From positions 281,054 to 345,053 of the forward strand of contig VZDJ01005178.1 in the NCBI GenBank assembly GCA_008694505.1: 64,000 nucleotides of DNA, read 5' to 3'. Each line of letters opens with the position of its first letter. Position 1 is the first letter of the stretch. Of the stretch, positions 36,713-60,246 are shown piece by piece. The stretch is from Cyanoderma ruficeps (Eukaryota > Chordata > Aves > Passeriformes > Timaliidae). The notes below the pieces were generated by a model. The model saw only the letters and a program-made list of their open reading frames with translations. It ran no database searches and was not told the DNA's origin. A program made the translations under genes and the position numbers.

Positions 36713-36979
36713 TCAAGGACCTGCCCACAGCCCCTCGTGTTCCTGAGGCTCCGCGGAGGACGATCCGTGTCCCTGCTCCTCCTGTGGGCTCGGCCTTTGG
36801 CTCTCCCGCCTCCAGCAGGTTCTTCCATGGGCTCCGAGCCACACGGCCCCGCTGGCCACGAGCTGCAGGGCCGGGGGGAAGGCACGGAGCTCGGCGTCCC
36901 GCAGCCGCTCCTCCAGCGCCGCCTCCGTGTCCCCGGCCAGCGGCTCCCGGCGGATGGCGGCCCCGGCGCTCGGCTCCTC
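36713..36979 (-). CDS. GART-like: GART-like copy 2 exon 21 with C-terminal extension
   Basis: 267 bp including [23 protein letters not shown] replaces [10 protein letters not shown]..., so the catalytic aspartate is a serine. [19 protein letters not shown] is conserved. The protein then runs ~33 residues past the copy 1 end in a basic, then Gln/Glu/Ser-rich tail ending GLWAGP. Acceptor 'tgtgcccgcag'. Confidence 0.88.
   Translation of the reverse strand, partial: EEPSAGAAIRREPLAGDTEAALEERLRDAELRAFPPALQLVASGAVWLGAHGRTCWRRESQRPSPQEEQGHGSSSAEPQEHEGLWAGP

Positions 36980-60246: not shown

Follow-up and report, generated by a model that had tools for sequence, protein, structure and literature searches.

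An old inverted GART paralogue in Cyanoderma ruficeps, probably retained by purifying selection as a catalytically inactive protein

GART catalyzes three steps of purine synthesis, and in other vertebrates the gene lies head to head with SON. Pseudoenzymes are catalytically dead paralogues that are kept by selection. A GARS-only short form of GART arises by intronic polyadenylation, according to the accessible part of PMC11297038. Among the literature matches listed, with subscription papers mostly outside them, there was no account of a GART duplicate, paralogue, or dead copy. Here, we describe a locus of the passerine Cyanoderma ruficeps in which an intact GART gene (copy 1) is accompanied by a divergent second copy (copy 2). 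The window, that is the whole 64,000-nucleotide stretch of DNA that was analyzed, is C462:281054-345053 on a contig of 847,237 bases, and the assembly searched comprises 1.03 Gb in 481 contigs. Copy 2 probably arose long ago as an inverted tandem duplicate of GART and has since lost its purine activities, while purifying selection has maintained it as a spliced protein that folds.

Vertebrate GART, represented by the human structures 2qk4, 2v9y, and 1meo (sequence matches at 2.3e-182, 5.6e-114, and 1.5e-50, respectively), is the closest described system. Copy 2 shares its domain order and has the exon phases of copy 1. It differs by replaced catalytic residues in all three domains, an E5 shortened by 9 nt, a C-terminal extension, and the loss of the GARS-only stop. 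Copy 2 resembles pseudoenzymes in combining the loss of active-site residues with purifying selection on the protein. With respect to the short form, copy 1 has a TAG just inside the E10 donor (18163-18165) and two AATAAA signals (19072 and 19606) in the 3-kb intron downstream of it, an arrangement that fits the GARS-only form as far as the accessible part of PMC11297038 describes it. In contrast, this stop has been lost from copy 2, whose intron 10 measures 125 bp and contains neither AATAAA nor ATTAAA.

A search of the window with human GART revealed two sets of GART exons in opposite orientation (Table 1). The two copies stand tail to tail, and their coding ends are 2.2 kb apart. Upstream of copy 1, the opposite strand carries a match to the N-terminus of SON and an open frame of 3118 aa, both within the 50 kb on the left; we read the open frame as the large exon of SON. 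Because copy 1 is head to head with SON, it is taken to be the gene at the ancestral place. The family searched genome-wide was GARS_A, with the AIRS and formyltransferase families outside this search. It gave five matches, all inside the window. Just one of these falls in copy 2, and a third GART copy that is highly diverged could therefore escape such a search. Matches to TMEM50B were located at C462:86419-88716, on the SON side of GART, and two weaker matches were located on C176. In human, TMEM50B is located 3' of GART; given its position on the other side here, the duplication may have been accompanied by a local inversion. Intron 20 of copy 1 contains a 58-bp minisatellite (32247-34276) with 26 copies in the main array, at which strand asymmetry is extreme (GC skew of -0.54 over 32001-34000).

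Table 1. Positions of the two GART copies, the copy 2 exons, and the assembly gap (window coordinates)
Feature	Position	Strand	Remark
Copy 1, intact GART	7152..34519	+	21 coding exons, 1003-aa ORF; stop 34520-34522
Copy 2, inverted GART paralogue	36713..60246	-	20 of 21 coding exons; exon model and Pfam matches
E1	60102..60246	-	gene-conversion tract with copy 1 E1 (7152-7296)
E2	59261..59356	-	exon model
E3	58704..58878	-	exon model
E4	57112..57223	-	ATP-grasp loop GLAAGKGV to GPAARKEV
E5	56600..56659	-	-9 nt
E6	55166..55291	-	exon model
E7	54066..54153	-	exon model
E8	53197..53282	-	10-residue motif altered relative to copy 1
E9	52593..52761	-	exon model
E10	49376..49607	-	GARS-only stop of copy 1 lost
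E11	49156..49250	-	linker exon, 95 nt, very divergent
E12	48358..48467	-	SGTDGVGTK to SQTKGLGPK
E13	46209..46407	-	exon model
E14	45157..45408	-	+3; GGETAEMP and HSNG motifs lost
E15	43965..44114	-	-3
E16	42417..42623	-	+3
E17	41520..41660	-	+9, linker
420-N gap	40396..40815	.	in intron expected to hold copy 2 E18
E19	39131..39272	-	GC donor
E20	37919..38034	-	catalytic N and H to S
E21 and stop	36713..36979	-	catalytic D to S; ancestral stop lost; net +84 coding nt

An earlier note on this DNA had described copy 2 as 20 exons in an open, phase-perfect frame despite heavy divergence, and our recount agrees with its exon number, location, and strand. The exon boundaries were set at AG/GT sites; nonetheless, 14 of the 20 exons match copy 1 exactly in length. 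Five others show net differences of -9 (E5), +3 (E14), -3 (E15), +3 (E16), and +9 nt (E17), again as the note gave them. E21 is extended, as had also been noted; the net gain is counted without stops, the exon has its own stop at 36713, and the alignment places a further gap of three codons within it. When the 20 exons are read in the phase of copy 1, the single stop is the terminal one, compared to 33 and 23 stops in the other two frames, which bears out the claim that no in-frame stop is present. All 19 acceptors are AG, and the donors comprise 18 GT and one GC. G is found at donor position +5 in 13 of the 19 copy 2 donors and in 14 of the 20 in copy 1. The introns had been called mostly unrelated, and this holds as well: at an E value of 1e-3, blastn between the copies returned repeat-like matches, which we take to be pieces of CR1, in two of the 18 introns compared and otherwise none. 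Divergence is heavy for most exons, at 59-82% identity in gapped DNA alignments, but this part of the description fails for E1.

The E1 copies (7149-7302 and 60096-60249) show one difference in 154 bp, an identity of 99.35%. The near-identity reaches from 3 bp upstream of the ATG to 6 bp beyond the exon-intron border, and the whole genome contains two matches. With sites taken as independent, the chance of so few differences at 30% divergence is below 1e-20. The near-identity is attributed to recent gene conversion, confined to the stretch that was still alike. An alternative is that copy 2 was misplaced by the assembly or is a chimera, and the almost identical E1 would suit such an error, as would the N gaps present in and near the GART locus. 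However, misjoining of a single gene cannot produce 20 divergent exons in collinear order within one stretch, and GARS_A has no match outside the window. An artefact is therefore highly improbable.

Synonymous divergence between the copies was estimated as 0.67 (fourfold sites), 0.92, or 1.20, which is 1.6 to 2.9 times the chicken-zebra finch dS of 0.418 given in the accessible part of PMC2911116. The corresponding naive age is 144-259 million years, a guess because of saturation and the local rate. Since dS exceeds 0.418 and the introns no longer align, the divergence suggests, with wide error, that the duplication is older than the split of chicken and zebra finch. Dating by shared repeats was attempted and rejected. 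The CR1-like repeats near E14 in intron 13 of both copies differ at their 5' ends, and each resembles other elements of the window more closely than its counterpart, so that they are not accepted as a common insertion; the CR1-like elements of intron 15 have no flanks in common.

Pfam matches above the cut-off were obtained in the pieces of copy 2 searched for GARS_N, GARS_A, GARS_C, AIRS, AIRS_C, and Formyl_trans_N, and the GARS_A match is strong (225 bits). The GARS-AIRS-GART domain architecture is thus retained, with the N-terminal part of the formyltransferase (E18) unseen. Single-exon DNA alignments of the two copies contain offsetting small gaps in several exons, so that compensated shifts are possible, with E11 as a suspicious case; real shifts and alignment noise are not separable in these alignments. 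E11 was scored as missing at first, as its protein match was near chance (12 of 200 shuffles). This result was overturned by a test of exact length, phase, and splice sites. Two open 95-nt stretches between AG and GT with a pyrimidine tract were found in the intron, and at least one such stretch occurs in 0.9% of 2000 shuffles. The identity of E11 rests on its exact length, splice sites, phase, and place, and on nucleotide similarity that is weak but reached by 0 of 1000 shuffles. Only 6 of 31 residues agree with copy 1, the DNA is 48% identical without gaps, and the exon is nearly unrecognizable.

Several further features of copy 2 were recorded. A 47-bp minisatellite in intron 14 (44737-45160) overlaps at its end the last bases of E14 (45157), and a 40-bp minisatellite is located in intron 19 (38560-38984). 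A 9-bp repeat, GACAGCGGG on the + strand (55303-55388), lies approximately 11 bp upstream of E6 on the gene strand and forms the pyrimidine-rich tract of this exon. At the 5' end of copy 2 (60000-60750), the observed/expected CpG ratio in 500-base stretches is 0.47-0.66, compared to 0.17 for the window and 0.29 for exon 1 of copy 1. The raised CpG possibly marks a promoter of its own.

The phase-perfect frame of the earlier description breaks down at E18. In copy 1, this exon is 131 nt long and leads from phase 1 to phase 0. No counterpart was found in the corresponding intron of copy 2; the best match there was rejected, since 132 of 200 shuffles reach its score. An assembly search with the 43 residues of E18 returned copy 1 and no second match. 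If E17 is joined to E19, a TGA stop appears at codon 817, and the frame is therefore continuous only if E18 lies in the assembly gap of its intron, where it may be unsequenced. E19 to E21 are open in the frame that requires E18, and from this we infer that the exon is located in the gap.

The absence of E18 can also be read as the beginning of decay. Under this explanation, copy 2 is a once-selected paralogue that has recently lost E18 and is now a young pseudogene. The GC donor of E19 at 39129-39130 (AAG|GCAAGA), the sole non-GT donor among 19, and the lost stops of E21 and of the GARS-only form are in line with it. Pairwise tests of selection average the entire life of copy 2, and a recent end of selection is therefore invisible to them. 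On the other hand, the lack of internal stops, the frame-keeping lengths, and the splice sites indicate that selection ended, if at all, within the last ~0.03 (0.027) substitutions per site, of roughly 0.33-0.60, and E19 to E21 still hold a frame for which E18 is needed. Recent decay is the largest rival explanation, and we regard it as unlikely.

Selection on the protein was estimated outside the conversion tract. Between the copies without E1 (904 codons), the NG86 method gave a dS of 0.92, a dN of 0.29, and an omega of 0.32. A codon maximum likelihood model gave a dS of 1.20 and an omega of 0.25; relative to an omega of 1, the likelihood ratio was 200.7. By part, the codon-model omega was 0.19 for GARS, 0.33 for AIRS, and 0.15 for the GART part, where dS is saturated. 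Against selection, the linker exons E11 and E17 reached an omega of 1.8 and 1.1 in the NG86 comparison. Because a pairwise omega mixes both copies, changes were polarized with human GART, using a protein sequence that agrees with the PDB chains. On this basis, 193 changes were assigned to the branch of copy 2 and 53 to that of copy 1. If synonymous change is assumed to be equally shared, the omega of copy 2 is roughly 0.39-0.70 overall, about 0.3 in GARS and 0.6-0.8 in AIRS, and that of copy 1 is 0.11-0.19. The latter is similar to the chicken-zebra finch omega of 0.152 in the accessible part of PMC2911116. Copy 2 is thus relaxed, yet not neutral.

Tests based on BLOSUM62, stops, and splice sites are independent of the assumed synonymous split. 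The mean BLOSUM62 score of replacements specific to copy 2 is -0.13, compared to -0.73 for neutral change (0 of 2000 random sets of equal size). By part, the counts are 0 for GARS, 0 for AIRS, and 7 for GART of 2000. Non-canonical bases occupy one of the 76 splice dinucleotide positions, against approximately 25 hits expected neutrally. In 300 neutral simulations at 0.33 substitutions per site, 18.6 stops arose on average and 7 at minimum, and copy 2 has 0 internal stops. The residues W, C, F, and L, a grouping chosen post hoc after the residue-loss table, were spared: among 126 conserved sites, 17 had lost them, versus approximately 36 expected if total loss is the same (0 of 300). At fully conserved sites, the loss of Y, I, and M was as frequent as that of polar residues, which is not predicted by a simple rule of a kept fold.

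A pseudogene that has been neutral since the duplication, with its frame open by luck, would explain the broken active sites and an amino-acid identity of 60% outside E1. This explanation is contradicted by the stops, the splice sites, the omega, and the pattern of replacements; moreover, neutral change of 0.33 per site would reduce the identity to the starting protein to approximately 51%. Lifelong neutrality is extremely improbable. The proposal of the earlier note that copy 2 is under selection for a protein is supported, as long-term selection for a spliced product and within a single genome, by omega, frames, splice sites, and replacements that are conservative beyond the neutral level. 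Purifying selection on copy 2 at the protein level is well supported.

The catalytic residues were mapped onto both copies in the present analysis. The formyltransferase triad consists of Asn106, His108, and Asp144 in the accessible part of PMC4786211. Copy 1 retains all three, and copy 2 has serine at each. For AIRS, the accessible part of PMC3261824 proposes Asp65, Asp94, and His190 (E. coli PurM numbers). Copy 1 has all of these; in copy 2, D65 is replaced by K and H190 by P, and D94 is retained. Further motifs of copy 2 are changed in E12 and lost in E14 (Table 1). In GARS, copy 2 has a replaced glycine loop (Table 1, E4) and replacements of E, N, R, and E in the motif EFNxRFGDPE; copy 1 is intact at both. 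The loop and the motif belong to the ATP-grasp motifs of GARS. The motif evidence supports the loss of all three purine activities, in agreement with the earlier view that the protein is no longer a purine enzyme. As judged from these residues, catalysis by copy 2 looks lost.

Copy 2 might still be a purine enzyme with one active domain, most likely GARS. This part has the lowest copy 2 omega for which the estimate is unsaturated (~0.3), and its GARS_A match is the strong one given above. Its replaced glycine loop and EFNxRFGDPE residues speak against activity, and we consider an active GARS very unlikely. As a pseudoenzyme, which is the reading we prefer, copy 2 would be made and would fold, and a mode of action can be proposed. 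The dead protein may bind the active copy 1 enzyme or the purine-enzyme assembly to which it belongs. Once bound, this inactive partner could conceivably tune the enzyme or assembly. The GARS part, which is the most constrained, would carry this partner role.

Annotators may label copy 2 as a pseudogene or as a second purine enzyme. If it is dead and kept, it would be an old test case for the conversion of an entire multidomain enzyme into a pseudoenzyme. An inactive copy next to the active gene would also offer a natural handle on the regulation of a multi-enzyme assembly. For the lineage, and perhaps for birds at large, we tentatively suggest, at somewhat less than even confidence, that an ancient GART paralogue in tail-to-tail arrangement, which the synonymous clock places before the divergence of chicken and zebra finch, may have persisted next to the active gene for far more than 90 million years, retained as a catalytically dead regulator of purine synthesis.
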